From positions 1 through 37,467 of the forward strand of contig ONBN01000018.1 of assembly GCA_900316115.1 (NCBI GenBank): a stretch of DNA of 37,467 nucleotides. Reading direction: 5' to 3'. A model generated the notes under the pieces. That model did no database searches and had not been told where the DNA came from. It saw only the letters and a program-made list of their open reading frames with translations. A program made the translations under genes and the position numbers. The DNA comes from an uncultured Eubacteriales bacterium. Its GTDB lineage: Bacteria; Bacillota; Clostridia; Lachnospirales; Lachnospiraceae. Within the stretch, counting starts at the first letter, position 1, and the number at the start of each line of letters is the position of its first letter. Shown here one piece after another: positions 1 through 21,806 of the stretch.

Positions 1-626
1 AGGGGATGATTCTCTGGCCCAAGCCTGCCTGCTGCCTTTGCATCCCGGATCAGCGCATCGATCACTTCTGCATTCTCACAGTGCACTCCTGCAAAGCAGC
101 CTTCTTCCTTTAATTTCTTAATGATCTTATAAATATCCCCATCCCCTACGATCATTGCCGGATAAGTCATATACAGCTTAAAGCTGGTGATCCCTGCATC
201 GATCATATCCTGGATCTCTTTTTCAGTTTCTTCATTCCATTCCACAATGGACATGTGAAAAGAATAATCACAGGAGCATTTACCGTCAGCCTTTTTGTGC
301 CATTTTTCCAGGCCTTCCTTTAATGTATGGCCTCCTTTATCCTGTGATGCATAATCCACCACCATGGTTGTCCCTCCAAGGATGGCAGCCCTTGTACCTG
401 TTTCAAAATCATCTGCTGTAACAGTCCCTGCCACCTCCAGGTCAAAGTGGGTATGACCGTCAATAAATCCAGGAAACAGAAGCTTTCCTGTTACATCCAT
501 CACCTCTGCCCCTTCTTCGATAAGATTCTCTCCTACAGCCAGGATCTTCTCACCATCTGTGAGTACATCTGCCTTTACTGATTTCTCTCCTGATACAACC
601 GTTCCGTTCTTAAGTAAATATCTCAT
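1..626 (-). CDS. hydA: Dihydropyrimidinase / D-hydantoinase-type amidohydrolase (HydA), 3' end cut by the window
   Basis: Metal-dependent cyclic-amide hydrolase of the dihydropyrimidinase/hydantoinase family. About 208 N-terminal residues are present; the rest lies outside the window. The sequence shows DGHTHFDLE with the metal-binding His pair at about residues 58 and 60. It also shows SFKLYMTYP with the lysine at about residue 150, the position that is carboxylated to bridge the two metals in D-hydantoinase, and a metal-ligand-type His in GVHCEN at about residue 182. The ATG at 626 follows a GGAGG at a good distance. In purine-degrading anaerobes hydA belongs to the same gene set as ygeX/ygeY/ygeW/ygfK/ssnA, where it would open or hydrolyse a cyclic or ureido intermediate. 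The exact substrate cannot be read from sequence. It is transcribed away from the PAS-HTH regulator. Confidence 0.93.
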   Translation of the reverse strand, partial: MRYLLKNGTVVSGEKSVKADVLTDGEKILAVGENLIEEGAEVMDVTGKLLFPGFIDGHTHFDLEVAGTVTADDFETGTRAAILGGTTMVVDYASQDKGGHTLKEGLEKWHKKADGKCSCDYSFHMSIVEWNEETEKEIQDMIDAGITSFKLYMTYPAMIVGDGDIYKIIKKLKEEGCFAGVHCENAEVIDALIRDAKAAGRLGPENHP

Positions 627-697
627 AGTGATACCTCCTTATCATTCAGGTCTTATATGTTTCCACTGTCCTGGGGAATGCCCCCATTTTTTATTTC

Positions 698-726
698 AAT
701 ATAGCACTTCTGTACTGATTATTCCA
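698..726 (-). promoter_or_regulatory. Possible hydA promoter
   Basis: Reading leftward, TGCTATATT gives an extended -10 (TATATT at 703-698). The -35 region 17 bases upstream (about 726-721, TGGAAT) matches poorly. The site lies about 75 bases before the hydA start codon. An activator may be needed given the weak -35. This is a sequence match only. Confidence 0.35.
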
Positions 727-785
727 TACATATCCCTGAATTTTACAATTTTTTTTAGCTTTCCATATTTTTTTTGCGAAAATCC

Positions 786-814
786 TTTTTATTTTTTTTT
801 GCCTGTGCTATACT
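786..814 (+). promoter_or_regulatory. Extended -10 promoter of the PAS-HTH regulator
   Basis: TGCTATACT at 806-814 is an extended -10 with TATACT at 809-814. The -35 region around 786-791 is T-rich but not a clear match. Transcription would begin near 821, giving a leader of about 124 nt before the regulator start at 945. Confidence 0.5.
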
Positions 815-820
815 ATTTAC

Positions 821-895
821 ATGATATCAGAGTAAAAAATTTGTTATATCCATGATTGGAAAGGTGCAAAGCACAAAGCAATCCGCAGGTATCAT
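821..895 (+). promoter_or_regulatory. Foldable 5' leader of the PAS-HTH regulator
   Basis: ATGATATC at 821-828 can pair with GGTATCAT at 888-895 with one mismatch. This would close a domain that contains a small hairpin, GTGC/GCAC, at 864-874. The outer arm falls exactly where the transcript would begin. There is no U-tract, so this is not a terminator. It could be a structured leader or a DNA operator; both are guesses. Confidence 0.25.
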
Positions 896-944
896 ATCGT
901 TTGGCTGACAGCAATTACTATTTATAGAAAGGGAGGCAGCTTTT

Positions 945-1580
945 ATGGGACGTCTGACTGTCTTAAAACAAATCGCCCAGGATCTGGCTTCAGAATTCGG
1001 GCCTGACTGTGAAGTTGTGATTCACGACCTGAAAACCAAGGATCCTGAACACTCCATTGTTTATATCGTAAACGGACACGTTACAGGACGAAGCATTGGA
1101 GACGGGCCTTCTGATGCAGTTTTTGATGTGATCCGCAACCGGAACCATAAGGGAAGTGAGCCTTCTGACCATTCCGGCTATCTGATGAAGACCGGCGATG
1201 GCAAGATCCTGAAATGCAGCACTTCCTATATCCGTGATGATGACGGATCCCTTCATTATGTATTTGGGATCAATTATGATATCACCAAGCTTACCATGAT
1301 CGAGAATGCCCTCCATGCACTGATCACCCCGCAGAACAAAGAAGAAAAGCCAAAGCGCATTTCCCACAATGTAAATGATCTTCTGGAGCGCCTGATCGAG
1401 GAATCTGTGGCACTTGTAGGCAAGCCGGTAGCGCTGATGAATAAGGATGACAAAGTCAAAGCCATTCAATTTTTGAATGATTCCGGAGCATTTCTCATCA
1501 CCAAATCAGGAGATAAGGTAGCCAATTATTTCGGCATTTCCAAATATACGCTTTACAGCTATATTGATGTTAATAAATAA
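945..1580 (+). CDS. YheO-like PAS-domain / helix-turn-helix transcriptional regulator
   Basis: A 211-residue DNA-binding regulator. Residues about 5-118 resemble the PAS_6 (YheO-like) sensor domain, with VIHDL near residue 26 and a SYIRDDDGSLHYVFGINYD segment near residue 100. Residues about 130-211 resemble the HTH_22 DNA-binding domain, ending in a GDKVANYFGISKYTLYSYID helix-turn-helix. The ATG follows GGGAGG at 931-936 with 8 bases of spacing. It is transcribed away from hydA and sits beside the purine operons, so it is the best local candidate for their control. It may sense a purine or a breakdown product through the PAS domain. That role is inferred from position; the family assignment is from sequence. 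Confidence 0.88.
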   Translation: MGRLTVLKQIAQDLASEFGPDCEVVIHDLKTKDPEHSIVYIVNGHVTGRSIGDGPSDAVFDVIRNRNHKGSEPSDHSGYLMKTGDGKILKCSTSYIRDDDGSLHYVFGINYDITKLTMIENALHALITPQNKEEKPKRISHNVNDLLERLIEESVALVGKPVALMNKDDKVKAIQFLNDSGAFLITKSGDKVANYFGISKYTLYSYIDVNK

Positions 1581-1605
1581 TTAGGCTTTTGCCTCACACA
1601 TTACT

Positions 1606-1624: not shown

Positions 1625-1633
1625 AGAAGAGTT

Positions 1634-1816: not shown

Positions 1817-1829
1817 CTTTCTCCCCTCC

Positions 1830-1858: not shown

Positions 1859-1892
1859 GTACTTATAAAAATAATCCTGTAAGGAGGCCATT

Positions 1893-2414
1893 ATGAATCA
1901 GGAAATGTACGAAGAAGCAGTCCGCTCCAATGTATTGTCCAGACAGCTGATCGAAGATCTTCTCAACAGTCTGGACTATACCGGTATCTCATTTATCAAC
2001 TCAACCATCGAGGTCTTAAAAGTGCTCCGCACCCGTCTGGAGCGAGGTGATAAGATCACTGATGAAGTATCCGGGATCACATACACCATTGACAGCTTTT
2101 ACAAATTTGTAAAAGACCATTTCTCTTCTTATATCCTGAGCCAGGTTTTTGACGACCCGGCCCATGCAGAAAAGGTCTATTTCTCCCTGGAGGCCTGCGA
2201 GGGAGGCTATAACCTGGTTATGGCAGACTCCTCTCACAACAAAACTTACGAGTGGATCTCCTCCTTAAGCGAAAGATTCTCCCTGGTGCGTATGATCTCT
2301 ACAGGGATCGTGTACCTGAAGGATGTAAAAACCAATACATACCAGCCTTTCATCTCCAGTAACGGGAAATACTGCCGCTACGATAAAGATGCGGGGCATC
2401 TGGTAGAGCTTTAA
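1893..2414 (+). CDS. Unrecognised 173-residue cytoplasmic protein
   Basis: No signal peptide, membrane segment or familiar catalytic motif is visible. The first 60 residues are predicted-helical and acidic/basic mixed (VLSRQLIEDLLNSLDYTG). The second half looks like a small alpha/beta domain rich in Tyr and Ser, ending YCRYDKDAGHLVEL. The ATG follows AAGGAGG with good spacing, and a strong promoter lies just upstream, so the gene is very likely expressed. It converges on the DUF1015 gene with overlapping stop codons, which leaves no room for a terminator. No function is assigned. Confidence 0.8.
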   Translation: MNQEMYEEAVRSNVLSRQLIEDLLNSLDYTGISFINSTIEVLKVLRTRLERGDKITDEVSGITYTIDSFYKFVKDHFSSYILSQVFDDPAHAEKVYFSLEACEGGYNLVMADSSHNKTYEWISSLSERFSLVRMISTGIVYLKDVKTNTYQPFISSNGKYCRYDKDAGHLVEL

Positions 2415-3658
2415 TCTTTCAGCTTGTGGATAAAGATCCCGCTGCGGAGCTTTGGCTCAAACCAGGTAGACTTAGGCGGCATCAGCTTACCTTCATCAGC
2501 GATCTGCATCAGATCTTCAACAGAGGTGGGATACATGGCAAATGCGATCCCACCTTCTTTTTCTGCCAGTTCTCCCAGCTCTTTCAGGCTGCGGTTGCCC
2601 CCCACAAAGCTTATCCTTGGATCTCTTCTTTCATCTTTGATCCCCAGTACAGGTGACAGCACCTTCTCATGAAGGATCTGCACATCCAGCTGTCCTACAA
2701 TATCCTTCTTCTCATACACATCCGGCCAAGCCTTCAGATGGAACCACTGACCTCCTATATACAGGCCAATGCAGTGCTTCTCCACCGGCTTGCATGGAAA
2801 TCCAGGCATAGCCACCAGTTCAAAATTAAATTTCAGGCTTGCAAGGAATGCCTGTTCTGTCAGTCCGTTCAGATCTTTTACGATCCTGTTGTAAGGCAAA
2901 ATGGTAAGCTGGTCAAAGGGGAATACCACAGAAAGGAAAAAGTTAAATTCTTCTTCTCCTGTATAATCCGGATGTTCCTGTCTCCTCTTCTGTCCTACTT
3001 TCACAGCAGAGGCAGCCCTGTGATGGCCGTCTGCAATATAAAATGCAGGAATATCACCAAACTCTGTAGAAATCTTCTGAATGATATCCGCATCATCAAT
3101 TACCCATACTCTGTGGATCACTTCATCCTCTGCTGTAAAATCATAAACAGCCTTATGAGAAGCTTTCCATTGCTCCATCAAGTCAAGAAGCTGCTGTGTG
3201 TATCTGCAGGCAAGATAAATAGGGCCTGTATTGGCATCGCACACATCTACGTGACGGATACGGTCAAGCTCCTTGTCTTCCCTTGTAAGCTCATGCTTTT
3301 TCACAACACCGTTCATATAATCGTCAATGGATGCACAGCCTGCGATCCCGGTCTGGGTCCTGCCTTTACGCACAAGTTCATAAATATAATAGCAGGGAGA
3401 CGGATCCTGGATCATGGTTCCTGTTTCTTCCATTTTTTCCAGGTTTTCTTTTGCTTTCTGATAAACAGAAGGATCATACAGATCTACATCCAGCGGAAGA
3501 TCCATCTCTGCCCTGTCCACATGCAGAAAAGAATCCGGATTTGCTTCTCCTATCGCCCTGGCTTCTTCACGGTTCACCACATCATACGGAAGCGCTGCTA
3601 CTCTTGCGGCTTTCTCCGGTACTGGACGAAGTGCACGAAAAGCCCTTAATATGGCCAT
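2411..3658 (-). CDS. DUF1015 family protein
   Basis: A 415-residue protein that matches the DUF1015 family in length and sequence. It has an N-terminal LPYDVVN segment near residue 25 and the family's hallmark FYIADGHHRAASA near residue 205. The function of the family is not established; the paired His in the hallmark suggests a metal or phosphate site. The start is set at 3658 (MAILRAF) because GGAGAG lies 8 bases upstream. A longer frame begins 30 bases earlier but lacks a ribosome site. A promoter with TTGTCA and TAGAAT precedes it. It lies between the two arms of the purine locus, but nothing in the sequence ties it to purine breakdown. Confidence 0.88.
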   Translation of the reverse strand: MAILRAFRALRPVPEKAARVAALPYDVVNREEARAIGEANPDSFLHVDRAEMDLPLDVDLYDPSVYQKAKENLEKMEETGTMIQDPSPCYYIYELVRKGRTQTGIAGCASIDDYMNGVVKKHELTREDKELDRIRHVDVCDANTGPIYLACRYTQQLLDLMEQWKASHKAVYDFTAEDEVIHRVWVIDDADIIQKISTEFGDIPAFYIADGHHRAASAVKVGQKRRQEHPDYTGEEEFNFFLSVVFPFDQLTILPYNRIVKDLNGLTEQAFLASLKFNFELVAMPGFPCKPVEKHCIGLYIGGQWFHLKAWPDVYEKKDIVGQLDVQILHEKVLSPVLGIKDERRDPRISFVGGNRSLKELGELAEKEGGIAFAMYPTSVEDLMQIADEGKLMPPKSTWFEPKLRSGIFIHKLKD

Positions 3659-3702
3659 AATATCTCTCCTCTCATCTCTTGTTTTCAAAATATTTCCAGT
3701 TC

Positions 3703-3807: not shown

Positions 3808-3857
3808 AGGAATAAGAAATTAACTTTATAAAAATATACAAAGGGAGGTTGTTTCAT

Positions 3858-5084
3858 ATGACAGAAGGACTGAAATGGACTGTGAACCAGGTACCCAAAT
3901 CTTCTGATTCCTATCTGAATCTGATGTCCAAAGAAAACGTGCAGAAAGCCAATGAATTCCACAAAAGCTTTCCCCAGTACTCTGTAACACCCCTGCAGAA
4001 GCTTTCTGCTCTGGCTAAGTTTCTGGGTGTAAACAATATTTTCTGCAAGGACGAATCCTACCGTTTCGGACTGAATGCCTTTAAAGTGCTGGGCGGATCC
4101 TATGCAATGGGACGTTACATTGCAAAAGAGCTTGGAAAAGATATCAGCCAGCTGCCTTACAATGTTCTCTCTTCCGAAGAGCTTCGCAAAGAGTTCGGAC
4201 AGGCTACTTTCTTTACCGCAACAGACGGCAATCATGGGCGTGGAGTTGCATGGGCAGCACACCGTCTTGGTCAGAAGGCTGTTGTACGTATGCCGAAAGG
4301 TACAACCAAGACCCGTTTTGACAATATCGCAAAAGAAGGCGCAGAAGTTACCATTGAAGAGTTAAACTATGATGACTGTGTAAGGATGGCAGCTGCCGAG
4401 GCAGCCAAGACTCCTCACGGGATCATTGTCCAGGATACTGCCTGGGACGGATATGAAGAGATCCCGTCCTGGATCATGCAGGGATACGGCACTCTGGTTC
4501 TGGAAGCAGACCATCAGATGGAAGAAGCCGGTGTCCGTCCTACCCACGTATTTGTCCAGGCTGGTGTAGGCTCCCTTGCAGGTGCTGTGGTAGGCTATTT
4601 TGCCAACAAATACAGAGAAAATCCTCCGGTAATGGTAGTCTGTGAGGCAGGGGCAGCTGATTGTCTGTACCGTTCTGCCTGTGCAAAGACCGGAGATCTG
4701 GTAAATGTTACCGGAGATCTTTCCACCATTATGGCAGGACTTGCCTGTGGTGAAGGCAATACCATTGGATGGGATATTCTTAAGAATCATGTTTCCGTAT
4801 TTGCATCATGTCCTGACTGGATGAGTGCAAAGGCTACCAGGATCTATGCCAACCCGCTTGGTGAGGATCCAAAGGTTATTTCCGGTGAATCCGGTTCTGT
4901 ACCTCTTGGCCTTGTTTACACTGCTCTTCATGATGAGGATGCGGCAGATCTTAAGGAAGCCCTTCACCTTGATGCAGATTCCAACATCCTTGTAATCTCC
5001 ACAGAGGGAGACACGGATCCGGTACGTTACCGTGAGATCGTATGGGACGGTCTTTATGGCACATCCCAGTCTCTCAGTAAATAA
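3858..5084 (+). CDS. ygeX: 2,3-diaminopropionate ammonia-lyase (DpaL/YgeX)
   Basis: A 408-residue PLP enzyme of fold type II that converts 2,3-diaminopropionate to pyruvate and two ammonia. It carries CKDESYRFGLNAFKVLGGS with the PLP-binding lysine at about residue 76. TATDGNHGRGVAWAA lies near residue 120, and a Gly-rich cofactor phosphate loop (QAGVGSLAGAV) near residue 235. The ATG at 3858 sits 9 bases after GGGAGG; a TTG at 3849 directly abuts that site and is rejected. It is the first gene of a rightward operon with ygeY, ygeW and arcC. In the purine pathway this step would deliver carbon to pyruvate, which the pyruvate:ferredoxin oxidoreductase encoded at 30254-33793 could then oxidise. 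Confidence 0.95.
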   Translation: MTEGLKWTVNQVPKSSDSYLNLMSKENVQKANEFHKSFPQYSVTPLQKLSALAKFLGVNNIFCKDESYRFGLNAFKVLGGSYAMGRYIAKELGKDISQLPYNVLSSEELRKEFGQATFFTATDGNHGRGVAWAAHRLGQKAVVRMPKGTTKTRFDNIAKEGAEVTIEELNYDDCVRMAAAEAAKTPHGIIVQDTAWDGYEEIPSWIMQGYGTLVLEADHQMEEAGVRPTHVFVQAGVGSLAGAVVGYFANKYRENPPVMVVCEAGAADCLYRSACAKTGDLVNVTGDLSTIMAGLACGEGNTIGWDILKNHVSVFASCPDWMSAKATRIYANPLGEDPKVISGESGSVPLGLVYTALHDEDAADLKEALHLDADSNILVISTEGDTDPVRYREIVWDGLYGTSQSLSK

Positions 5085-5198: not shown

Positions 5199-6509
5199 AT
5201 GGATTACAGCCAAATCAATGCAGCAGCAGAAGGCTACAAAGCAGACATGACCAGATTTTTACGGGATCTTGTAAAAATTCCTGGAGAAAGCTGTGGCGAA
5301 AAAGGACATGTGATGCGGATCAAAGAAGAAATGGAAAAGCTTGGCTTTGACAAGGTTCAGATCGATCCTATGGGTAATATCCTTGGCTTTATGGGCAGCG
5401 GCAAGACTCTCATCGGTTTTGACGGTCATATCGATACTGTAGGTATCGGCAACAGAGACAACTGGGAGTTTGATCCATACGAAGGCTATGAAACAGATTC
5501 TGAGATCGGCGGCCGTGGAACCTCTGACCAGATGGGCGGTATCGTTTCTGCTGTGTATGGTGCCAAGATCATGAAAGACCTTGGTCTTTTAAATGATAAA
5601 TTCCAGGTTGTAGTTACAGGTACTGTACAGGAAGAAGACTGTGACGGCCTTTGCTGGCAGTACATCATCCATGAAGACAAGGTTCGCCCGGAGTTTGTTG
5701 TATCCACAGAACCGACAGACGGCGGTATCTACCGTGGACAGCGTGGACGTATGGAGATCCGTGTGGATGTAAAGGGTATCTCCTGCCATGGTTCCGCTCC
5801 AGAGCGTGGAGACAATGCGATTTATAAAATGGCAGACATCCTTCAGGATGTACGTGCCCTCAATGAAAATGATGCAGCTGATGAGACACAGATCAAGGGT
5901 CTTGTAAAAATGCTGGACGAGAAATACAATCCTGAATGGGAAGAAGCACGTTTCCTTGGAAGAGGTACTGTTACTACTTCTGAGATCTTCTTTACTTCCC
6001 CAAGCCGCTGTGCAGTTGCAGATTCCTGCTCTGTATCCCTTGACCGCCGTATGACTGCGGGCGAAACATGGGAAAGCTGCCTGGATGAGATCCGTGCCCT
6101 TCCTTCCGTAAAAAAATACGGAGATGATGTAAAGGTTTCCATGTACGAATACTCCCGTCCATCCTGGACAGAGCTTGTATATCCTATCGAATGCTACTTC
6201 CCTACCTGGGTAATCCCGAAAGACCACAAAGTTACAAAAGCACTGGAAGAAGCATACAAAGGCCTGTATGGCGAAGAACGCCAGGGTAATGAAGTAACAT
6301 CAGAACTTCGTAAATCCCGTCCTCTTACCGACAAATGGACCTTCTCCACAAACGGCGTAACCATTATGGGACGTAACAAGATCCCTTGCATCGGTTTCGG
6401 ACCTGGTGCAGAGGCACAGGCACATGCACCAAACGAAAGAACCTGGAAAGATGACCTTGTAAGATGTGCAGCTGTATACGCAGCACTTCCGGGAGCTTAC
6501 TGCAAATAA
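5199..6509 (+). CDS. ygeY: YgeY family M20 metallohydrolase
   Basis: A 436-residue zinc hydrolase of the M20/ArgE/DapE superfamily, in the YgeY subgroup linked to selenium and purine metabolism. Visible metal-site motifs are [14 protein letters not shown] (His at about 77, Asp at 79), [11 protein letters not shown] (Asp at about 110) and [12 protein letters not shown] (catalytic and metal Glu pair at about 145-146). The family cleaves amide or carbamoyl bonds; here it probably releases an amino acid such as diaminopropionate for YgeX, though the exact substrate is inferred. The ATG follows AGGAGG with normal spacing. It lies second in the operon, 114 bases after ygeX and separated from it by a perfect inverted repeat. 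Confidence 0.93.
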
Positions 6510-6550
6510 TTAACTAATCCATCACAAAATAAACGAGGAGAATGATACCC

Positions 6551-7744
6551 ATGAAAACATTACAGGATTATATTGACAAACTGAACAGCCTTAATTTTAA
6601 AGAAATGTACAACAATGATTTCTTCTGGACCTGGGACAAGACAGATGATGAGCTGGAAGCTGTTTTCACTGTTGCAGATGCCCTTCGTTTTATGAGAGAG
6701 CACAATATTTCCACAAAAGTATTTGAAAGCGGTCTTGGTATTTCCATTTTCCGTGATAATTCCACACGTACCCGTTTCTCTTTTGCTTCTGCCTGCAACC
6801 TGTTAGGTCTTGAGGTACAGGATCTGGACGAAAAGAAATCCCAGATCGCTCATGGTGAGACTGTCCGTGAAACAGCAAACATGGTTTCCTTTATGGCAGA
6901 TGTGATCGGTATCCGTGATGATATGTATATCGGCAAAGGCCATGCTTACCAGAAAGAATTTATGGATTCTGTTACAGAAGGTAATAAAGACGGTATCCTG
7001 GAGCAGCGTCCTACCCTTGTAAACCTTCAGTGCGATGTAGACCATCCTACCCAGTGTATGGCAGATATGCTTCACATCATCCATGAATTTGGCGGTGTGG
7101 AGAATCTGAAAGGCAAGAAGATCGCTATGTCCTGGGCTTACTCTCCTTCTTACGGCAAACCACTGTCTGTTCCTCAGGGCGTGATCGGACTTATGACACG
7201 TTTCGGTATGGATGTTGTTCTTGCTCATCCGGAAGGATATGACGTAATGCCAGAAGTTGAGGAAATCGCACGTAAGAATGCACAGGCTTCCGGCGGTTCC
7301 TTTACAAAGACAAACAGCATGGAAGAGGCATTCAAAGATGCTGATATCGTTTATCCAAAGAGCTGGGCTCCTTTTGCTGCCATGGAAAAACGTACCAGCC
7401 TTTACGGAGAGGGCGATTTTGAGGGCATTGACAAACTGGAAAAAGAGCTTCTTGCTCAGAATGCAGAACACAAAGACTGGGCATGCACAGAAGAGCTTAT
7501 GAAGACTACAAAGAATGGCAAAGCCCTTTACCTGCACTGCCTGCCAGCAGATATTTCCGGTGTAAGCTGCGAAACCGGTGAGGTTGACGCAAGCGTATTT
7601 GACCGTTACAGAATCCCGCTTTACAAAGAAGCAAGCTTTAAACCATACATCATTGCAGCTATGATCATGCTGTCCAAATTTGAGAATCCTCAGGACATCC
7701 TGAAGAAACTGGAAGTGAAAGCAGCTCCCAGGATCATGGCATAA
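6551..7744 (+). CDS. ygeW: YgeW, knotted carbamoyltransferase-like protein
   Basis: A 397-residue member of the aspartate/ornithine carbamoyltransferase superfamily, YgeW group. The carbamoyl-phosphate loop FRDNSTRTR is at about residues 67-75, and the second conserved motif LHCLPADISG starts near residue 328. The substrate of YgeW is not deducible from sequence. Acting in the catabolic direction, it could phosphorolyse a ureido compound to carbamoyl phosphate for ArcC. The ATG at 6551 is 10 bases after GAGGAG; an ATG at 6542 is too close to that site. It is third in the operon, 41 bases after ygeY and 26 before arcC. Confidence 0.94.
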   Translation: MKTLQDYIDKLNSLNFKEMYNNDFFWTWDKTDDELEAVFTVADALRFMREHNISTKVFESGLGISIFRDNSTRTRFSFASACNLLGLEVQDLDEKKSQIAHGETVRETANMVSFMADVIGIRDDMYIGKGHAYQKEFMDSVTEGNKDGILEQRPTLVNLQCDVDHPTQCMADMLHIIHEFGGVENLKGKKIAMSWAYSPSYGKPLSVPQGVIGLMTRFGMDVVLAHPEGYDVMPEVEEIARKNAQASGGSFTKTNSMEEAFKDADIVYPKSWAPFAAMEKRTSLYGEGDFEGIDKLEKELLAQNAEHKDWACTEELMKTTKNGKALYLHCLPADISGVSCETGEVDASVFDRYRIPLYKEASFKPYIIAAMIMLSKFENPQDILKKLEVKAAPRIMA

Positions 7745-7770
7745 TATCCCATTTGGGGTGGGAGGTTTTT

Positions 7771-8715
7771 ATGTATCAAAGAAAACGAATCGTGATCGCT
7801 CTTGGCGGCAATGCTCTGGGAAACACCCTCCCGGAGCAGATGATCGCTGTAAAGGCTACTGCCAGAGCGCTTTGTGATCTTATTGAAGAAGGCCATCAGG
7901 TGGTAGTTGTCCACGGAAACGGACCTCAGGTGGGCATGATCAACAATGCCATGTCTGCCCTTTCCAGAGAGGACGATGCTCAGCCTAACACACCTCTTTC
8001 TGTATGTGTTGCCATGAGCCAGGCCTATATTGGCTATGATCTTCAGAATGCACTCAGGGAAGAATTGCGGAAACGTGGTTTTATGCGTACTCCTGTGGTA
8101 ACTGTTGTTACCCAGGTTCGGGTAGATCCGGATGATCCTGCCTTTGAAAATCCCACAAAACCGATCGGCAAATTCCTTACAAAGGATGAGGCAGAATATC
8201 AGGCAAAGGCCTATGGTCACATCATGCGTGAGGACGCAGGCCGCGGCTACAGGCGTGTGGTAGCATCTCCCAAGCCTGTAGAGATCGTAGAGCAGGATGC
8301 CATCAACAGTCTGGTAGATGCCAACAAGATCGTGATCTGCTGCGGAGGCGGTGGGATCCCTGTGATCCTGAAGGATCATCATCTGAAAGGTGCATCTGCA
8401 GTGATCGACAAGGACTTTGCCAGCTGTCTTCTTGCAAAACAGCTGGATGCAGATATGCTGATCATCCTTACAGCAGTTGAAAAGGTAGCCATTAATTTCG
8501 GCACTCCGGATCAGAAATGGTTAGATGACCTTACCGTTTCCCAGGCCCGCAAATATGTAAAAGAAGGCCAGTTTGCTGCAGGTTCCATGCTTCCCAAGGT
8601 GGAAGCAGCCATTGATTTTGCAGGCTCCGGTTCCGGACGCACTGCACTGATCACCCTGCTTGAAAAGGCAAAAGAAGGCATTCAGGGAAAAACTGGAACC
8701 CTGATCCATCTGTAA
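7771..8715 (+). CDS. arcC: Carbamate kinase
   Basis: A 314-residue carbamate kinase of the amino-acid kinase fold, transferring phosphate from carbamoyl phosphate to ADP to give ATP, ammonia and CO2. Motifs include VIALGGNALG at the N terminus, VHGNGPQVGMINNAM near residue 50, a Gly-rich CCGGGGIPV near residue 190 and GSMLPKVEAA near residue 270. The ATG at 7771 follows GGGAGG. It is the last gene of the rightward operon and the likely energy-yielding step of the pathway. The length is normal for ArcC. Confidence 0.96.
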   Translation: MYQRKRIVIALGGNALGNTLPEQMIAVKATARALCDLIEEGHQVVVVHGNGPQVGMINNAMSALSREDDAQPNTPLSVCVAMSQAYIGYDLQNALREELRKRGFMRTPVVTVVTQVRVDPDDPAFENPTKPIGKFLTKDEAEYQAKAYGHIMREDAGRGYRRVVASPKPVEIVEQDAINSLVDANKIVICCGGGGIPVILKDHHLKGASAVIDKDFASCLLAKQLDADMLIILTAVEKVAINFGTPDQKWLDDLTVSQARKYVKEGQFAAGSMLPKVEAAIDFAGSGSGRTALITLLEKAKEGIQGKTGTLIHL

Positions 8716-8780: not shown

Positions 8781-8847
8781 AAAAGGAGTTATCTGGATTA
8801 AGGCAGAAGTATGATCACTTCCGCTCTCACTCAGGATAACTCCTTTT
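8781..8847. terminator. Long shared stem-loop between the converging purine operons
   Basis: AAAAGGAGTTATC (8781-8793) pairs perfectly with GATAACTCCTTTT (8835-8847). Inside it, GCAGAAGT and ACTTCCGC form a second stem with one mismatch. Leftward transcripts end in CTTTTTGT and rightward ones in CCTTTTAAA, so it can serve both arcC and mocA. The right arm lies inside the last codons of mocA, so the leftward hairpin begins before the mocA stop codon. Confidence 0.85.
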
Positions 8848-10144: not shown

Positions 10145-10160
10145 CGGCTCCTCCTTCTCT

Positions 10161-14677: not shown

Positions 14678-14715
14678 AAGCTTCACCTTCTTTTTCATAG
14701 CTGTATTAATATTAC

Positions 14716-14764
14716 AAAAAGAGCCGGACAAATCCCTTTTTTCAGGAACTGCCACAGGCTCTTT
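14716..14764 (-). terminator. Terminator-like hairpin inside the leftward operon, upstream of xdhA
   Basis: Reading leftward, AAAGAGCC (14764-14757) pairs with GGCTCTTT, which is followed by more T (14725-14716). The inner segment can also pair partly. It begins 8 bases after the stop of the selenium-type xanthine dehydrogenase gene and ends 38 bases before xdhA. It may reduce or regulate transcription into xdhABC and the maturation genes. Confidence 0.7.
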
Positions 14765-14772
14765 CGCCGCTT

Positions 14773-17334
14773 TTATTTCTTCCTCTCATAGGGAGTATCT
14801 GAAAGAGGAAGGGATGTCCTGAACTTTCCATCATAATGATAATAGGCTGCTGCAATAGCCGGTGCTGTGGGGATGGATGTGATCTCTCCGATCCCAATCG
14901 CTCCCCCTGCTACATTCAGCCCTTGTTTCTCTACAATAATACTCTCTACCAAAGGTATCTTATTTGCTTTTGGTAGTCCCAGTGTACCATATCTGGCTGT
15001 TGGTTTGCAATCTGTAAGAGGATATTTCTCAGTAAGAGCGTATCCAAAAGACATGACCACTCCGCCTTCGATCTGTCCTTCCACAGACAATGGATTCACT
15101 GCTTTTCCCACATCATGGGCTGCCACGATCTTGTCCACTGTTCCATCTTCCTTCAAAATGCATACCTGGGTAGCATACCCATAAGCTACGTGGGAAACCG
15201 GATTCTTCAGATCACTTCCCATTGGATCTGTTTTCGCCAAATATTCCCCTGTATATTCCTTTCCCTCCAACTGAAAAAGATCAGCTCTATCCAGATCTTT
15301 TTTCATATTTTCGCAGGCACGTATGCAGGCTTCTCCTGTAACAAGCGTCTGCCTGGAACCGGAGGTCGTTCCTGAATCCGGTGCACTCCAGGTATCTGAT
15401 CCGCTGTAACAGATCTTTTCCCTTGGAAGCCCCAAATGCTCTGCTACCAGCTGCACAAGCACGGTTCCTACCCCCTGCCCGATACAGGATGCTCCTGCAT
15501 GGATCTCCACACATCCATTCTTTACAAGGAGTCTGCATCTGCCCCAGTCAGGTAGACCCACACCTACTCCTGCATTTTTCATGGCACAGGCAATCCCTGC
15601 CCCCGGATGTTCATCGAATACCTTTTTCACCGCTTCCAAAGTCTCACAAAGCCCTGTGGAAGCATCTACGATCTGACCGTTTGGAAGTTCCTGTCCCGGA
15701 CGTATCCCATTCCTGTATCGAATCTCCCAGTCACTGATACCCACCTTTTCTGCCATTTTGGTAAGAAGCATTTCAATGGCAAAACAGGTCTGGGTCACAC
15801 CAAATCCACGGAAAGCGCCTGCCGGAGGATTATTAGTATAGTAAGCTTTACCGTCAATATCAAAATTCTGATAATTATATGGCCCTGAAGCATGGGTACA
15901 TGCTCTTTGCAGTACCGGCCCGCCAAGAGAAGCATAAGCTCCTGTATCTGCGATCACGCTTGCCTTTACTCCCTGGATGATCCCGTTTTCATCACATCCA
16001 AGGGTAAACTCCATATCCATAGGATGGCGCTTGGGATGGATCAGAATGCTTTCTGCCCTTGTCAGCTTTACCTTAACCGGATAACCAGACAGATAAGCGA
16101 TCATAGCTGCGTGGTGCTGCACGGTCACATCTTCCTTCCCTCCAAAACCTCCACCTACCAGCATATTCCGTACACGGATCTTTTCTGCCGGAAGCCCAAG
16201 AACGGTCATACATTCATGCTGGGTATCATAAACTCCCTGATCTGTGGAATAAATGGTCACACCACCATCCGCATCCTTTACAGCCACTGCACACTCAGGT
16301 TCCAGAAAAGCATGCTCTGTCCAGGGCGTATGAAAATGATCCTTCACCACATAAGCAGACTTTGCAATCGCCTGATCTGCATCCCCTCTGTGTACATGCC
16401 AGTGTGCCAGAAGATTATCCTTTTCCGACTCATGAACCTTAGGTGCATCCGGCTTCATAGCCTGATATGGATCTTTTACCATAGGAAGTTCTTCATACTC
16501 TACCCGGATCAGCTTCTTTGCTTCTTCCAGGATCTCCGGTGTACGGGCTGCCACAAGTGCAACTGCATCTCCCAGATAATGAACCAGGTGCCCCACCGGA
16601 ACCAGCGTATCCCAGTCTTTTTTCAGATGTCCTGTTTTTATGTTACCTGGAATGTCTTCTGCCGTATAAACACCGATCACCCCCGAAAGAGCCTTTGCCT
16701 CCTCTGTATGAATGGCAAGAACCCTTGCCCTGGGGTAAGCTGCACGAAGGGCGCTTCCATAGATCATCCCTTCAAGTTCCAGATCATCCGGATATTTCCC
16801 GATCCCAAGTACCTTTTCACGTACATCGACCCTTGGGACTCTCTCTCCCATCTTCCATGTATAGGATGTACCTGCCGGAAGCCCTTCCCGCAGGTATTTT
16901 CCTGCAAGAATGATCCCATCAATGATCTTCTTATAACCTGTACAGCGGCAGATATTATTCTTAATGGCATCTGCAGCATCAGCCCTGGACGGATCCGGAT
17001 TCTTATCCAGAAGCCCTTTGGCACTAATGATCATCCCCGGAATACAAAAGCCACACTGCACTGCACCTGCTTCTCCAAAGGCTCTTACATAAATCTCCTT
17101 TTCATGCTCACTTAAGCCTTCCACAGTCAGGATGTGCTTCCCCTCAAGCTTGGAAAGCCTGGGAACACAGGCCTTCATAGGTTTTCCATCGATCAAAACA
17201 TGACAGGTACCACAGGCGCCCTCACTGCATCCGTCTTTCACAGATTTTAATTTACATACATTTCTCAGAAAAGGAAGAAGCTTCCCATCCTTTTCCTCCT
17301 GATATTCTTTTCCATTCACATAAAAGCGGTGCAT
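14773..17334 (-). CDS. Selenium-dependent xanthine dehydrogenase-type protein: fused 2Fe-2S and molybdenum domains
   Basis: An 853-residue single chain. Residues 1-140 hold two [2Fe-2S] clusters: CSEGACGTC at about 36-44 with Cys 56, then CGFC at 94-97 and CRC at 129-131. Residues about 160-853 are the molybdopterin catalytic region, with VGGGFGGKED near 394-402, AFRGFGVTQTCFAIE near 507-521, SCIGQGVGTV near 616 and AIGIGEITS with the catalytic Glu near 818. There is no FAD domain. Length and architecture match the selenium-dependent xanthine dehydrogenase group, in which labile selenium is added after translation, and the gene carries no in-frame UGA. It could oxidise or reduce the xanthine/urate couple. 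It lies 10 bases after ygfK and may exchange electrons with YgfK or XdhB; that partner choice is inferred. Confidence 0.92.
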   Translation of the reverse strand: MHRFYVNGKEYQEEKDGKLLPFLRNVCKLKSVKDGCSEGACGTCHVLIDGKPMKACVPRLSKLEGKHILTVEGLSEHEKEIYVRAFGEAGAVQCGFCIPGMIISAKGLLDKNPDPSRADAADAIKNNICRCTGYKKIIDGIILAGKYLREGLPAGTSYTWKMGERVPRVDVREKVLGIGKYPDDLELEGMIYGSALRAAYPRARVLAIHTEEAKALSGVIGVYTAEDIPGNIKTGHLKKDWDTLVPVGHLVHYLGDAVALVAARTPEILEEAKKLIRVEYEELPMVKDPYQAMKPDAPKVHESEKDNLLAHWHVHRGDADQAIAKSAYVVKDHFHTPWTEHAFLEPECAVAVKDADGGVTIYSTDQGVYDTQHECMTVLGLPAEKIRVRNMLVGGGFGGKEDVTVQHHAAMIAYLSGYPVKVKLTRAESILIHPKRHPMDMEFTLGCDENGIIQGVKASVIADTGAYASLGGPVLQRACTHASGPYNYQNFDIDGKAYYTNNPPAGAFRGFGVTQTCFAIEMLLTKMAEKVGISDWEIRYRNGIRPGQELPNGQIVDASTGLCETLEAVKKVFDEHPGAGIACAMKNAGVGVGLPDWGRCRLLVKNGCVEIHAGASCIGQGVGTVLVQLVAEHLGLPREKICYSGSDTWSAPDSGTTSGSRQTLVTGEACIRACENMKKDLDRADLFQLEGKEYTGEYLAKTDPMGSDLKNPVSHVAYGYATQVCILKEDGTVDKIVAAHDVGKAVNPLSVEGQIEGGVVMSFGYALTEKYPLTDCKPTARYGTLGLPKANKIPLVESIIVEKQGLNVAGGAIGIGEITSIPTAPAIAAAYYHYDGKFRTSLPLSDTPYERKK

Positions 17335-17344: not shown

Positions 17345-20341
17345 TTATGGGATCAGATAACCATAATCGCTGATCACTGCAAGTATCAGTTTCTTAAGAT
17401 CCTCATACAGCGGATCCTTTGGATCATCTGCCTTGCACTGCTTTTCTGTACCAAGGAAGCGTACCTTGCAGATCCTGTTCTTTGGATCCAGCACTGTAAA
17501 TCCATCATTCTTACTGTCTGCCATATCTGCTTCGCTGGCAAATAGTGTAAACTTATCCTTATAAGGCGCACTGGCGTATGGACAGAAAGTGCGGCAGTTC
17601 CCACATTCATTACACATATAATCTACATGGATCACCTGGTCTTTGTCCATACCAGGTACACGAATGGAAATATTGGCTCTGTTTGGACAGACATCCACAC
17701 AGTTCTCGCAGACTCTGCTGCAATCCAGACATCTGTCTGCTTCTGATGATGCCTGTGCTCTTTCCTGAAGGATACCTTTCTTTGCATAGCAGTCTTCCTT
17801 TGTTCCCTGATCCGGATGCTGGCTTACGATTTCTCTTTGCAGGATATCCTTTGCGGCTAACTGTGCATCCCGAATGCCTTCAACAATAGTAGCTGCGCCT
17901 CTGGCTCCGTCTCCTACTGCATAGATCCCGGGAATACTTGTCTCACAAGTCTGGGTATTCAGACGCAGTCTGCCTTTTTCATTCACAGCCAGTCCATTTG
18001 CCTGATAAAACTCTGCCGGCACCTTCTCACCAACTGCTGCAATCACAGTATCTGCCGGAACCTGCACAAATTCATCCGTTTCTTTTGCACCTGCACGGCC
18101 GGATTCATCTGCCTTGGTCAGTTCCATTTTTCTGCAGAGAAGGACTCCGTTTTCATGGCTTACTGGTGATAGAAGTTCACAGAACTGAATGCCCTCTCCC
18201 AGAACTTCCAGAAGCTCATCCTCTGCTGCAGGCATATACCTTTTCGTCCTTCTGTATACAAGAGAAACCTTTTCCACGCCTTTCACCCGACTGGCTGCTC
18301 TTGCTGTATCCATGGCTGTATTGCCTCCGCCTACAACCACCACATTCTTTCCAAGGGAAAGTTCTCCCTTCTTTTCTTTATATTCTTTCAAAAACTCAAG
18401 CGCATTTCTGGCTTCTCCTTTTTCAAGAGGAAGAACCCCATGCTTGTGTGCTCCTGTAGCTAGGATCACATTGTCAAAGCCTTCTTCTTTCAGTGACTTA
18501 ACAGAACTGATCTCCCTGCCAGTCTTTACAGTTACTCCAAGGGCTTTTATAAAAGACAGATCCTTTTCAATCTCACTGTCTCCAATCCTGAACTCCGGGA
18601 TCACATAACGGATCACGCCGCCTAACTGAGCCTCTTTTTCAAAAATAGTCACATCCACGCCTTCCCTTGCAAGGAAGTAAGCAGCTGCTATGCCTGCCGG
18701 ACCTCCACCTACAACAGCTGTCTTTTTGCCCATGGCTGCCTTTGCTTTTACAGACGGAAGTGCACTATCATACCCGTTCTTTGCTGCAATAAGCTTCGTC
18801 CCACGAACATCCACAGCCTCTTCATAAAAATTCCGGGTACACTTTGTCATGCAGTTATGAGCACATAGGGTACCTGTTATAAAGGGGAGCGGATTCTTAT
18901 CCAGGATCACTTCAAGGGCTTCTTTATACTTGCCTTCCCCTGTAAGCCGGATATACTCCGGAATATCCTGATGGATAGGACATCCTTCCTGGCAGGGCGC
19001 ATAAAAGCAGTCCAGAAGAGGAACCTGCTGATCGCTCTTTCTTAAAGGAAGAGGTTTAATGCTCTTTAAATGATGCTGATCCTTTTTTGCTTCTTCAGCA
19101 AGGGCTGACAACTCCTCCACCTGTATACCCTGCCATTTTTCCATAGGCTTTTCCATTATTTTTTCTGCCATCTGGGTAAATCTCTGATATCCGCCTGGCT
19201 TCAGCAGCGTCGTAGCTACTGTTACCGGCCACACACCACAGGAAACGATCCTGTCAATGTTATAATAATCAGCACCTCCGGAATAAGCGATCCGAAGTTT
19301 CCCCTCAAACTGTGTGGAAAGCTTCGCTGCAAGTGAAATGGATAATGGGAATAAAGCCTTCCCGGACATATACATCTCTTCACTTGGAAGTTCTCCTCTG
19401 GTCACATCCACAGGGAATGTGTTAGTGATCTTTACCCCGAATTCTAATCCTAACTGGTCAGAAAGCTCCATCAGTCTGGTGAGCATAGGCACAGCATCTT
19501 CATACTGCAGGTCATCCCTGAAATGGAAATCTCCAAATACCATATAGTCGTAGCCCATCTCATCCATGGTCTTTCTGGCAAATTCATATCCTAAAAGTGT
19601 AGGATTACACTTAATAAAGGTATTTAAATGCTTTCCTTTAAGGAGATAATCTGCAATGCTCTCGATCTCCTTTGGAGGACATCCATGAAGGGTGGAAATC
19701 GTAGCTGAATTACAGACTGCAGATGGAATCCTTTTAATATCTTCTGCTGTCACATGTTTGAAAAGATCCGTATGCTCCAGCAGCCACTTTCTGCATTCTT
19801 TAAAAACAGCTGTATTCTTTGCTTCTTTCATGCCTTCAATAAAAGCATCAATCTTAGGGGTTTTGATCCCTGCCAGATCATATCCTACTGAAATATTAAA
19901 CTGAAAGCCATCCTGTTCCCCAAGTCCAAACTCCTTGGCCATTACATGAAGAAGAAACCAGGCCTTAATGTACTCCCCCATCGCATCTGGCACTGTCAGC
20001 TCTGTAGACCACTCACAGTTATATCCTTCATCCTCAGCAAGGATACAGGGCTTGTTAATACAGGATGCCAGTTCCTGTCCATCCATCTTCTGCACAGTCT
20101 TCAGTTCAAAAAATCGTGCTCCTGCATAATAGGAAGCTGCAATATTCTGTGCAAGCTGGGTATGGGGTCCGGCTGCCGGCCCAATGGGATTCTCCAGCTT
20201 CCTGTCAAAAATCTCTCCGCTTTTCCCTGGATCTGCCTTGTAAGCCCTATGTATTCCAAATACAGTCCCCCTGGATCTTTCTTCTTCCAGGATCCACTCC
20301 ATCAGCTGTCCGAAAGACATACATGTCATAAGATCACTCAT
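17345..20341 (-). CDS. ygfK: YgfK, multidomain flavin/iron-sulfur oxidoreductase of the purine locus
   Basis: A 998-residue protein. Residues about 1-400 form a dihydroorotate/dihydropyrimidine dehydrogenase-like barrel (VFGDFHFRDD near 268, SGGADYY near 354). Residues about 440-505 carry the N-terminal GltD-type Cys cluster (CFYAPCQEGC, CAHNCMTKC). AVVGGGPAGIAAAYF near 542 is the FAD site and VVVVGGGNTAMDTA near 667 the NAD(P) site. Residues 870-922 carry ferredoxin-type Cys motifs (CLDCSRVCENCVDVCP, CNECGNCRTFCP). It is often labelled a putative selenate reductase, but its place in purine loci suggests reduction of a purine-derived ring or electron exchange with the molybdenum hydroxylases. 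AGGAGG lies 7 bases before the ATG. Confidence 0.94.
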   Translation of the reverse strand: MSDLMTCMSFGQLMEWILEEERSRGTVFGIHRAYKADPGKSGEIFDRKLENPIGPAAGPHTQLAQNIAASYYAGARFFELKTVQKMDGQELASCINKPCILAEDEGYNCEWSTELTVPDAMGEYIKAWFLLHVMAKEFGLGEQDGFQFNISVGYDLAGIKTPKIDAFIEGMKEAKNTAVFKECRKWLLEHTDLFKHVTAEDIKRIPSAVCNSATISTLHGCPPKEIESIADYLLKGKHLNTFIKCNPTLLGYEFARKTMDEMGYDYMVFGDFHFRDDLQYEDAVPMLTRLMELSDQLGLEFGVKITNTFPVDVTRGELPSEEMYMSGKALFPLSISLAAKLSTQFEGKLRIAYSGGADYYNIDRIVSCGVWPVTVATTLLKPGGYQRFTQMAEKIMEKPMEKWQGIQVEELSALAEEAKKDQHHLKSIKPLPLRKSDQQVPLLDCFYAPCQEGCPIHQDIPEYIRLTGEGKYKEALEVILDKNPLPFITGTLCAHNCMTKCTRNFYEEAVDVRGTKLIAAKNGYDSALPSVKAKAAMGKKTAVVGGGPAGIAAAYFLAREGVDVTIFEKEAQLGGVIRYVIPEFRIGDSEIEKDLSFIKALGVTVKTGREISSVKSLKEEGFDNVILATGAHKHGVLPLEKGEARNALEFLKEYKEKKGELSLGKNVVVVGGGNTAMDTARAASRVKGVEKVSLVYRRTKRYMPAAEDELLEVLGEGIQFCELLSPVSHENGVLLCRKMELTKADESGRAGAKETDEFVQVPADTVIAAVGEKVPAEFYQANGLAVNEKGRLRLNTQTCETSIPGIYAVGDGARGAATIVEGIRDAQLAAKDILQREIVSQHPDQGTKEDCYAKKGILQERAQASSEADRCLDCSRVCENCVDVCPNRANISIRVPGMDKDQVIHVDYMCNECGNCRTFCPYASAPYKDKFTLFASEADMADSKNDGFTVLDPKNRICKVRFLGTEKQCKADDPKDPLYEDLKKLILAVISDYGYLIP

Positions 20342-20352
20342 TTGTCTGCCTC

Positions 20353-21690
20353 CTATTTTCCACTGTTGATATCATCTGCCAGTTCTTTTGCAGACTGTCG
20401 GCAGTCTGCCATCACCTTCTCTACATCGCATACCAGAACTTCCCGGTCTTTCATCAGGACTTTTCCATTGCAGACAGTAGTTACAACATCCCTGCCGTTT
20501 GTGCCAAACAGAAGGTGTCCGTTCACATTGTCCCCATGCATTGGTGTAAGCGGATCATAGTCCATCACGATCACATCACCTGCTGCCCCTTTCTTCAATA
20601 CACCCAGCGGGCTCTTAAAGTAGCGTCCGGCGATCACTGCATTATTCTCAAACAGCATCTTTGGAACCTCTGCCCAGGCTGCATTAGGATCACACAGACT
20701 GTGTTTGTGAAGGATATTGGCCACCTTCCAGGACTCCAGCATGTCATGGGTATATCCGTCTGTGCCCAGTCCTGTTATGATCCCTTTATGTACCATCTCC
20801 ATGGTAGGCGGACATCCACAGGCATTTCCCATATTGGATTCCGGATTGTGAACTACCATGGTATCTGTCTCTTTAATAAGATCCATCTCGTGCTCATTCA
20901 CATAAATGCAATGTCCAAGAAGGGTCTTCGGCCCCAGGATGTTCCAGTCGTACAATCTGTCCACGATCCTCTTATTATGCTCTTTCAGGCACTGATGCAG
21001 GTCATAGATTCCTTCAGCCACATGAATATGATAGCCTACACCTTCCGGCTTCAGTTCATTGCAAAGCTCCATAGTCTGATCAGAGATCGTAAAGGAAGCA
21101 TGCATCCCCATCATAGCAGCAATCATATCACTGTCATCTGCCAGGGCATGCTTGATAAAATTCACATTCTCCATAACAGACTCTCTGGACTTATCCATAC
21201 CGTCACGGTCAGAAATCTCATAACACAGGCAGGTACGGATCCCCAGATCCCTGGCTGCATCTTCAATGGCACTTAAAGAACCAGTAATATGTCCGAAGCT
21301 GGCATGATGATCAAAAACAGTTGTTACACCATTACGTATGGAATCAATATAGGTAGCATAAGCACTAAGTCTGGTCTGCTCCAATGTAAGATGGCGGTCA
21401 ATGGTCCACCACTGTCCGTCCAGGATATCCAGAAATCCGGAAGGATTATAACCTTTAATGGAAAGTCCCCGGGCAAAGGCGCTGTAAATATGCTCGTGTG
21501 CATTAATAAAAGCCGGCATGATCAGGCCACCTTTTGCATCAATGTACTCTGCCCCCGGACAGGCTTTCTTTACTTCTTCTGTGTCCCCAACCATGTGGAT
21601 CTTATTACCATCAATGGCTACGGCACCATTCTCAAAGAAAGGCTGAGATCCATCCCGTGTGATCATTCTTCCATTACCAATAATAAGCAT
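20353..21690 (-). CDS. ssnA: SsnA, putative aminohydrolase
   Basis: A 445-residue amidohydrolase-superfamily protein of the SsnA group, related to guanine deaminase and chlorohydrolases. FINAHEHIYSAFARG near residue 60 provides the HxH metal motif. Further metal-site candidates are HIHVAEG near 220, LLGHCIYVN near 257 and LGTDGYTHDM near 311. It probably deaminates or opens a purine-derived intermediate; the precise substrate is not shown by the sequence. It is the first gene of the leftward purine operon: GGAGGAGG precedes the ATG and a promoter lies about 60 bases upstream. It is followed after 11 bases by ygfK. Confidence 0.94.
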   Translation of the reverse strand: MLIIGNGRMITRDGSQPFFENGAVAIDGNKIHMVGDTEEVKKACPGAEYIDAKGGLIMPAFINAHEHIYSAFARGLSIKGYNPSGFLDILDGQWWTIDRHLTLEQTRLSAYATYIDSIRNGVTTVFDHHASFGHITGSLSAIEDAARDLGIRTCLCYEISDRDGMDKSRESVMENVNFIKHALADDSDMIAAMMGMHASFTISDQTMELCNELKPEGVGYHIHVAEGIYDLHQCLKEHNKRIVDRLYDWNILGPKTLLGHCIYVNEHEMDLIKETDTMVVHNPESNMGNACGCPPTMEMVHKGIITGLGTDGYTHDMLESWKVANILHKHSLCDPNAAWAEVPKMLFENNAVIAGRYFKSPLGVLKKGAAGDVIVMDYDPLTPMHGDNVNGHLLFGTNGRDVVTTVCNGKVLMKDREVLVCDVEKVMADCRQSAKELADDINSGK

Positions 21691-21751
21691 ATTTACCTCC
21701 TCCTTTTCTATTAACTGAATATATTAAGAATATTCCATATTTTATAGTATC

Positions 21752-21780
21752 AATTTATCATAAATTTGCACTAATTTCAA
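21752..21780 (-). promoter_or_regulatory. Promoter of the leftward purine operon
   Basis: Reading leftward, TTGAAA (21780-21775), a 17-base spacer and TAAATT (21757-21752) precede ssnA, with transcription starting near 21745. The region is strongly A/T-rich. An 18-bp palindrome lies 8 bases upstream of the -35 box. Confidence 0.6.
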
Positions 21781-21788
21781 TGGAACTT

Positions 21789-21806
21789 ATCAAAAATGTT
21801 TTTGAT
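21789..21806. promoter_or_regulatory. 18-bp perfect palindrome upstream of the ssnA promoter, candidate operator
   Basis: ATCAAAAATGTTTTTGAT has 8-base arms that are exact reverse complements around a TG centre. It sits just upstream of the -35 box, a usual place for an activator site. It is not followed by a T-run on the leftward strand in a way that would make it the cobC terminator, which is a separate hairpin at 21834-21864. Binding by the PAS-HTH regulator is possible but untested. Confidence 0.45.

Follow-up and report, generated by a model that had tools for sequence, protein, structure and literature searches.

Anaerobic degradation of urate has been rebuilt in vitro as a route from urate through yanthine, ureidomethylhydantoin, diureidopropionate, albizziin and diaminopropionate to pyruvate, with enzymes assayed from Escherichia coli and Clostridioides difficile (Li et al. 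2025, PMC12507026). In that account XdhD-YgfM converts urate to yanthine with NADH, YgfK and SsnA convert yanthine to ureidomethylhydantoin, HyuA gives diureidopropionate, YgeW or UacY gives albizziin, and YgeY together with YgeX gives pyruvate. Liu et al. 2025 assign YgeW to the other ureido group, so that the order of the two ureido cleavages by YgeW and YgeY is disputed (PMC12990295); the same commentary calls the electron donor of XdhAC an open question. Other publications linked the region to selenium in 2008 (PMC2276186), list ygeW-ygfK-ssnA-ygeY under the sigma-54 activator DioR without an assigned function (PMC6615313), and report genes of a uric acid cluster from Blautia_A sp900120195 (PMC12542679). 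Here we analyse a purine/urate gene cluster on contig ONBN01000018.1 (C10 in our numbering), whose entire 37,467 bp form the window, the whole stretch of DNA examined.

The contig belongs to a draft assembly of 2.77 Mb in 107 contigs, 91.5% complete, whose host is placed by sequence in a Blautia-type genus of the Lachnospiraceae. The nearest YgfK relatives among the named genomes are, among the matches listed, from Blautia metagenome-assembled genomes (MAGs) at no more than 75% identity. The locus clearly belongs to the known system, which earlier work had already recorded in this host group, and we regard it as highly probable that its genes specify the reductive (yanthine) pathway of anaerobic purine degradation. 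Our own data concern gene content, families, motifs, domain make-up and co-occurrence, while the steps from urate onward were shown on the E. coli and C. difficile enzymes. As a sound but ordinary example of a pathway published in 2025, the locus is of interest mainly for its gene order and electron supply, that is, for a co-occurrence test, a natural loss of YgfK domains and a redox reading, the readings themselves being interpretive.

Gene content and the proposed route

Within the first 21.7 kb, a rightward arm ygeX-ygeY-ygeW-arcC (3849-8715) faces a leftward arm ssnA-ygfK-SeXDH-xdhA-xdhB-xdhC-yqeB-yqeC-mocA, which runs from 21690 down to 8827 and whose genes overlap or are separated by short gaps, as is typical of operons. 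A sequence-only reading had described a near-complete purine/urate degradation set in about 22 kb, split into two converging operons. The gene set is borne out, with 12 NCBIfam models above their curated cut-offs on the strands given, and the gene strands bear out the convergence as well; twelve curated families within one 22-kb stretch are not a product of chance. The description as near-complete partly mirrors the contig end, since the window is the whole of C10. The hydA gene of that reading is present as hyuA, a 208-residue piece that points leftward and lies outside both facing operons. The genes of the cluster are as follows (NCBIfam scores as bits/curated cut-off; Pfam searches were run alongside).

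3..626, minus strand: hyuA, D-hydantoinase type, first 208 residues, running off the contig end (TIGR02033 242/393, profile positions 2-207)
3849..5084, plus strand: ygeX, 2,3-diaminopropionate ammonia-lyase (TIGR03528 606.5/532.25; 49% identical to E. coli YgeX)
5199..6509, plus strand: ygeY, M20 hydrolase, long form of 436 residues (TIGR03526 674/321.5; 62% to E. coli)
6542..7744, plus strand: ygeW, knotted carbamoyltransferase (TIGR03316 801/500; STRTR and HCLP motifs; 66% to E. coli)
7753..8715, plus strand: arcC, yqeA-type carbamate kinase (TIGR00746 394/358; 65% to E. coli YqeA)
8827..9435, minus strand: mocA-like molybdenum cofactor cytidylyltransferase (TIGR03310 130/186, under the equivalog cut-off; PF12804 passes)
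9422..10195, minus strand: yqeC, selenium-cofactor accessory protein, start codon uncertain (TIGR03172 201/73; PF19842)
10161..10973, minus strand: yqeB, selenium-cofactor accessory protein, short form (TIGR03309 346/220; model pLDDT, the predicted local distance difference test score, 91)
10966..11454, minus strand: xdhC, 2Fe-2S subunit of xanthine dehydrogenase (NF043084 250/217)
11451..12335, minus strand: xdhB, FAD subunit (NF043083 436/310)
12392..14755, minus strand: xdhA, molybdenum subunit, first 27 codons doubtful (NF043082 1235/780; NF007426 1132, above cut-off; 49% to E. coli)
14773..17334, minus strand: SeXDH (xdhAC type), proposed urate reductase, directly after ygfK (TIGR03311 1266/830)
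17345..20341, minus strand: ygfK, FMN barrel with FAD/NAD(P)H module and Fe-S clusters, proposed yanthine reductase (TIGR03315 1392/835; model domains)
20353..21690, minus strand: ssnA, metal-dependent amidohydrolase (TIGR03314 600/455.5; NF005540 667/444)

If the window's proteins act as their assayed counterparts do, XdhABC would oxidise hypoxanthine and xanthine to urate, and SeXDH, a molybdenum enzyme whose labile selenium ligand would be inserted by YqeB, YqeC, MocA and SelD, would reduce urate to yanthine (2,8-dioxopurine). YgfK would then reduce yanthine on its FMN barrel, which electrons of NAD(P)H would reach by way of the FAD and Fe-S modules. SsnA would open the pyrimidine ring of dihydroyanthine to ureidomethylhydantoin, and HyuA would open the hydantoin to 2,3-diureidopropionate. 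One ureido group would be phosphorolysed by YgeW to carbamoyl phosphate, from which ArcC would yield ATP, NH3 and CO2; the other would be hydrolysed by YgeY, and YgeX would convert diaminopropionate to pyruvate and ammonia. All four proteins of the rightward arm score above curated cut-offs, and solved structures exist for relatives of YgeX (5ygr, 4d9g) and YgeW (2yfk, 3q98). ATP recovery through carbamoyl phosphate and the exit to pyruvate through diaminopropionate had been read correctly. The accompanying statement that no chemistry follows for SsnA, YgfK and YgeW is out of date, their reactions being reported by Li et al. YgeY holds two inserts absent from its E. coli counterpart; they occur in 58 of 58 aligned relatives, which rules them out as a quirk of this genome.

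The NCBIfam descriptions still speak of a 'phenylhydantoinase' and a 'putative selenate reductase subunit', and a cluster serving hydantoins, pyrimidines or selenate instead would accord with them; since the E. coli and C. difficile counterparts have been assayed on the urate pathway, we find such a substrate scarcely credible. A second concern is that this organism might carry the genes in a silent or incomplete state, with hyuA broken or the MAG chimeric. The hyuA piece falls under the TIGR02033 cut-off because the gene is cut by the contig edge, and its HxH and SFKLYM motifs are present. A second hydantoinase piece (C-terminal, profile positions 246-454) lies near the end of contig C77, leaving some 28-38 residues unread between the two. 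Relatives in the genus carry both parts in one unbroken gene, with about 114 bp between the matched parts, and the gene order beyond hyuA on C77 (lipoprotein, LuxS-like, prolyl-isomerase-like), compared by eye, is like that of genome G028. Very probably, then, C77 adjoins the window on its left. The last ~440 bp of C77 (L147:17775-18221) hold, by eye, an unrelated permease-like frame fused within hyuA, probably an assembly chimera. With every other cluster gene in an open frame, a silent or incomplete locus appears very unlikely.

The molybdenum enzymes and the urate-reducing step

SeXDH is a fused protein with two [2Fe-2S] clusters and a molybdenum hydroxylase part (Fer2, Fer2_2, Ald_Xan_dh_C and MoCoBD domains) without an FAD domain, and its family and its place beside ygfK and ssnA suggest a urate reductase of the XdhD/XdhAC type. 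XdhABC has the E. coli-type make-up, its molybdenum, FAD and FeS subunits all scoring above curated cut-offs. Which of the two enzymes belongs to the core of the pathway was examined in 150 genomes of the family, one per genus, with presence taken as a score above the curated cut-off. YgfK and SeXDH each occur in 29 of the 150; 28 genomes have both, 120 neither and two are discordant (Fisher p = 4e-28, in a test that ignores shared ancestry). XdhA passes in 22 genomes, all of them YgfK-positive (22/29), and is thus missing above cut-off from seven of the 29, one of which (G209) has a partial match of 704 bits. XdhA-like matches at E <= 1e-150 are found in 56/150 genomes, the sub-cut-off paralogues not being counted as XdhA. 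Because SeXDH tracks YgfK almost perfectly and XdhA is found in only part of the YgfK genomes, the pattern fits SeXDH as the fixed step and core urate reductase, with XdhABC as a dedicated but optional feeder. This matches E. coli mutants, in which XdhA acts on xanthine and XdhD on urate (PMC12507026). In a wider sample, for which the 80 best were taken out of 567 confirmed YgfK loci in named genomes (matches under 60 bits dropped), SeXDH is found within the fetched stretch of 70.

The roles could also be exchanged, SeXDH being a selenium-dependent xanthine dehydrogenase that makes urate, with XdhABC or another molybdenum enzyme reducing urate to yanthine. Enterococcus faecalis EF2570 is named a selenium-dependent xanthine dehydrogenase, and the C. 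difficile homologues were found by searching with it (PMC11448449). The exchange is also favoured by the absence from SeXDH of the E606 marker discussed below, and by one of the two discordant genomes, G093, which has YgfK and XdhA and no SeXDH above cut-off. The seven YgfK genomes with SeXDH and no XdhA above cut-off speak against the exchange, as do the oxidation of xanthine by E. coli XdhABC (PMC12507026), whose model the window's XdhA passes, and the reduction of urate to yanthine by Clostridium sporogenes XdhAC (PMC12990295). We therefore regard the exchange as unlikely, and keep SeXDH as the predicted urate reductase.

Several observations weigh against this assignment or the route as a whole. 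Residue E606 of E. coli XdhD has been proposed to set the yanthine outcome; it falls in an insertion found only in XdhD and missing from SeXDH, so the regiochemistry of SeXDH is not readable from this residue, and our attempt to derive its product in this way failed. The SeXDH gap of G093 concerns a genome that is 90% complete, with the rest of the cluster and XdhABC on the same contig (C24; L167, L168), and reflects either missing data or an XdhABC that covers both roles. SsnA and the HyuA piece are only 31% and 37.5% identical to the E. coli proteins; the metal-ligand motifs of SsnA align with those of E. coli SsnA. The other discordant genome, G187, has SeXDH and no YgfK above cut-off, and carries a short YgfK described below. 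As a separate proposal, XdhB as obligate electron donor of SeXDH is unsupported, since only 15 of the 80 wider loci show xdhB within the fetched stretch, and is opposed also by the seven YgfK genomes without XdhA above cut-off.

YqeB, YqeC and SelD are all found in the genome, as expected for a selenium-dependent molybdenum hydroxylase. TIGR03310 is the best family for MocA although it scores below the cut-off. The short YqeB corresponds to the C-terminal half of E. coli YqeB, aligning to E. coli residues 268-524. For an alignment of YqeB relatives, 51 candidate rows were reduced to 44 sequences, the window's among them, and L066 was excluded for a stop within the range. An XdhC/CoxI-type maturation gene (PF13478, PF02625) directly follows hyuA on C77 (L147, 16077-17066), and by sequence this may be the partner of the half-length YqeB, the pair looking like a split E. 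coli YqeB. No match to selD or to the purine-permease family PF00860 occurs in the window; both are present on other contigs, selD on C14 and two PF00860 permeases on C11 and C13. An in-frame TGA lies in a conserved N-terminal loop of the C14 selD, as in selenoprotein SelD.

Elsewhere in the genome, FAD-like and FeS subunits and a molybdenum subunit (XdhA model 629/780 bits) lie respectively at the end of L164 on contig C28 and the start of L163 on contig C72, probably one further molybdenum hydroxylase split over a gap; XdhA-model matches in the range of the C72 score are common in the family.

YgfK forms and electron supply

The N-terminus of YgfK, blank in Pfam, is modelled as an FMN barrel of the dihydroorotate dehydrogenase type, joined to a predicted GltD-like part. 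Li et al. identified the C. difficile UacX through PF01180. At E <= 0.01 the window's YgfK does not match PF01180 (no search for UacX or UacY was made in the remainder of the genome), and the window is without the marker of the C. difficile-type variant, its reductase being YgfK rather than a PF01180-type UacX. Three shortened proteins were found among relatives: 584 residues in G028 of the window's own genus (L044:6228-7982), inside ssnA-ygfK-SeXDH-xdhABC-yqeB-yqeC-mocA; 601 residues in G187 (L165:8435-10240), beside ssnA; and 574 residues in G084 (L166:5921-7645), a second copy away from ssnA. All retain the barrel, together with the Fe-S part at the C-terminus, and are without the FAD/NAD(P)H module. 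Since they match TIGR03315 (780, 709 and 604 bits, under the cut-off of 835) and barely or not PF01180 (14.4 and 14.6 bits against a cut-off of 27, or no match), their sequences identify them as shortened YgfKs, not the C. difficile UacX. The form occurs in two genomes of the 150-genome sample, and a literature search of limited terms found no publication describing it.

The loss of the NAD(P)H module in G028, G187 and G084 may point to ferredoxin as the donor of these forms, and ferredoxin would plausibly also serve the FAD-less SeXDH; for the window's SeXDH, ferredoxin or NADH may be the donor. By arithmetic, with all steps element-balanced, hypoxanthine, dihydroyanthine and pyruvate hold 10 available electrons each and urate six. 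Conversion of hypoxanthine to pyruvate is therefore redox-neutral, and the net reductant needed to reach pyruvate is none from hypoxanthine, two electrons from xanthine and four from urate; pyruvate:ferredoxin oxidoreductase (PFOR) could supply two electrons from pyruvate.

A tentative reading, which we regard as plausible without thinking it probable, is that in the window's clade the leftward operon serves a self-balanced purine fermentation with modular electron entry and, on urate, ferredoxin fed by PFOR. The two oxidations of hypoxanthine by XdhABC (four electrons) would exactly cover the two reductions by SeXDH and YgfK (four electrons), and hypoxanthine + 5 H2O + Pi would give pyruvate + carbamoyl phosphate + CO2 + 3 NH3 without formate or any other external donor. 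On urate, PFOR acting on the pathway's own pyruvate would feed ferredoxin. The balance is arithmetic, and the use made of it is what we infer; if true, it would explain the placement of xdhABC between SeXDH and the maturation genes. Gut bacteria with the cluster affect host urate, and it therefore matters how gene content and electron supply decide which of them use urate alone and which need xanthine, hypoxanthine or formate. The tracking of YgfK by SeXDH, rather than by XdhABC, across genera makes the XdhAC donor question testable, and the natural YgfK variants without an NAD(P)H module offer a ready comparison of ferredoxin with NAD(P)H input.

Surroundings, regulation and comparison with known systems

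The remaining features of the window lie between and beyond the cluster genes.

945..1580, plus strand: YheO-like regulator gene, PAS_6 and HTH_22 (PF08348, PF13309), divergent from hyuA
2411..3688, minus strand: DUF1015 gene between the regulator and ygeX, a neighbour of uncertain membership (PF06245, 380 bits)
21752..21780, minus strand: promoter-like site upstream of ssnA, TTGAAA-17-TAAATT with TG (consensus match only)
21790..21805, no strand assigned: inverted repeat TCAAAAACATTTTTGA, a weak candidate operator from the operator search
30254-33793: PFOR, 8.5 kb from the cluster

The DUF1015 gene adjoins ygeX in several loci of the genus, yet in only 2 of the 80 wider loci. The open reading frame at 1893-2414 has no family match and a single relative (68%) among the genus stretches compared. 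From about 21.8 kb onward the window carries other genes (cob genes, a glycosyltransferase, PFOR, ABC-F), and the closeness of PFOR to the cluster may be chance. The adjoining cob set holds two CobU-type genes (22458-22844 and 23620-24165), one full length and the other matching the family over its C-terminal part alone. Searches of the window for Rfam families and for tRNAs found none.

Of the 80 YgfK loci, 58 hold a relative of the YheO-like protein, which in 50 of them immediately adjoins ygeX; the YheO-like protein is a candidate regulator of the cluster. Promoter and terminator scans of 8400-22600 gave no excess over shuffles (21 vs 22.5; 12 vs 11.7), and positions 1-4000 gave 13 promoter-like sites against 7.8 in shuffles (sd 2.9). 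In divergent loci a palindrome, CTAAAAA-N-TTTTTAG, is perfect in 23% of 69 ssnA and 38% of 48 yheO upstream regions and in none of the shuffles; these counts overlap, ssnA and yheO sharing one intergenic region, and were made on the data in which the palindrome was found, with near-identical upstream regions set aside by a rough deduplication. At 12/14 or better it was in none of 74 ygfK and none of 68 SeXDH upstream regions. It is weak in Blautia-type loci, where a looser form is found upstream of 7/24 ssnA, 1/8 ygeX, 0/7 yheO and 0/6 hyuA genes (1.7-7.5% in shuffles), and in the window, whose sites at 21790-21805 and 3757-3770 are weak and whose best scores are 10-12/14. The palindrome is a candidate site of the YheO-like regulator.

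A second cluster of this genome, on contig C47 (L037:1791-9923), encodes separate Mo, FAD and FeS hydroxylase subunits, a YgeY-like M20 hydrolase (30% identical to the window's), a sigma-54 activator (30% to E. coli YgeV) and an SsnA-like protein (35% to the window's SsnA; TIGR03314 434.9/455.5 bits). The latter had no other match in 64 genomes of the genus at E <= 1e-130, and in 291 genomes of the class at E <= 1e-110 only true SsnA. Because its M20 protein shares 71% identity with the one next to ygeX in the G187 urate cluster, the C47 cluster may encode a second ureido/purine route.

Compared across loci, the facing arrangement of the window stands out. Eight of nine genus loci fetched at length are convergent, the ninth (G021) not being decidable, whereas 54 of the 56 decidable loci of the wider sample are divergent and two convergent (24 of the 80 were set aside, having no ygeX/Y/W/arcC in the fetched stretch). 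The convergent layout is therefore a trait of the window's genus, tied to the insertion of xdhABC between SeXDH and yqeB. Within the genus, SsnA is above cut-off in 18 of 37 genomes searched.

Among the known systems, the E. coli K-12 cluster xdhABC-ygeV-ygeWXY-hyuA-yqeAB-yqeC-mocA-ygfK-ssnA-ygfM-xdhD (NC_000913) shares with the window the pathway genes, the carbamoyl phosphate/ATP branch and a long YgfK with an NAD(P)H module. It differs in having XdhD and YgfM in the urate reductase slot filled here by SeXDH, and the sigma-54 activator YgeV where the window has a YheO-like gene; the window's YqeB is half-length, and no permease, guaD or ygfST is present in it. The C. difficile-type variant (Li et al. 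2025) shares the route to diaminopropionate and pyruvate, with UacX and UacY where the window has YgfK and YgeW/ArcC (PMC12507026). Divergent loci of other Lachnospiraceae (Mediterraneibacter, Hungatella, Faecalicatena and others) share the window's genes, but their ygeX/W/arcC and ssnA/ygfK diverge around yheO and xdhABC is not inserted. In the Blautia-type loci (genus g1; L038-L055; L056-L072, L096), ssnA-ygfK-SeXDH-xdhABC-yqeB-yqeC-mocA faces arcC-ygeW-ygeY-ygeX as in the window; these relatives have additional genes separating arcC from mocA or yheO from DUF1015, and the window is the more compact.

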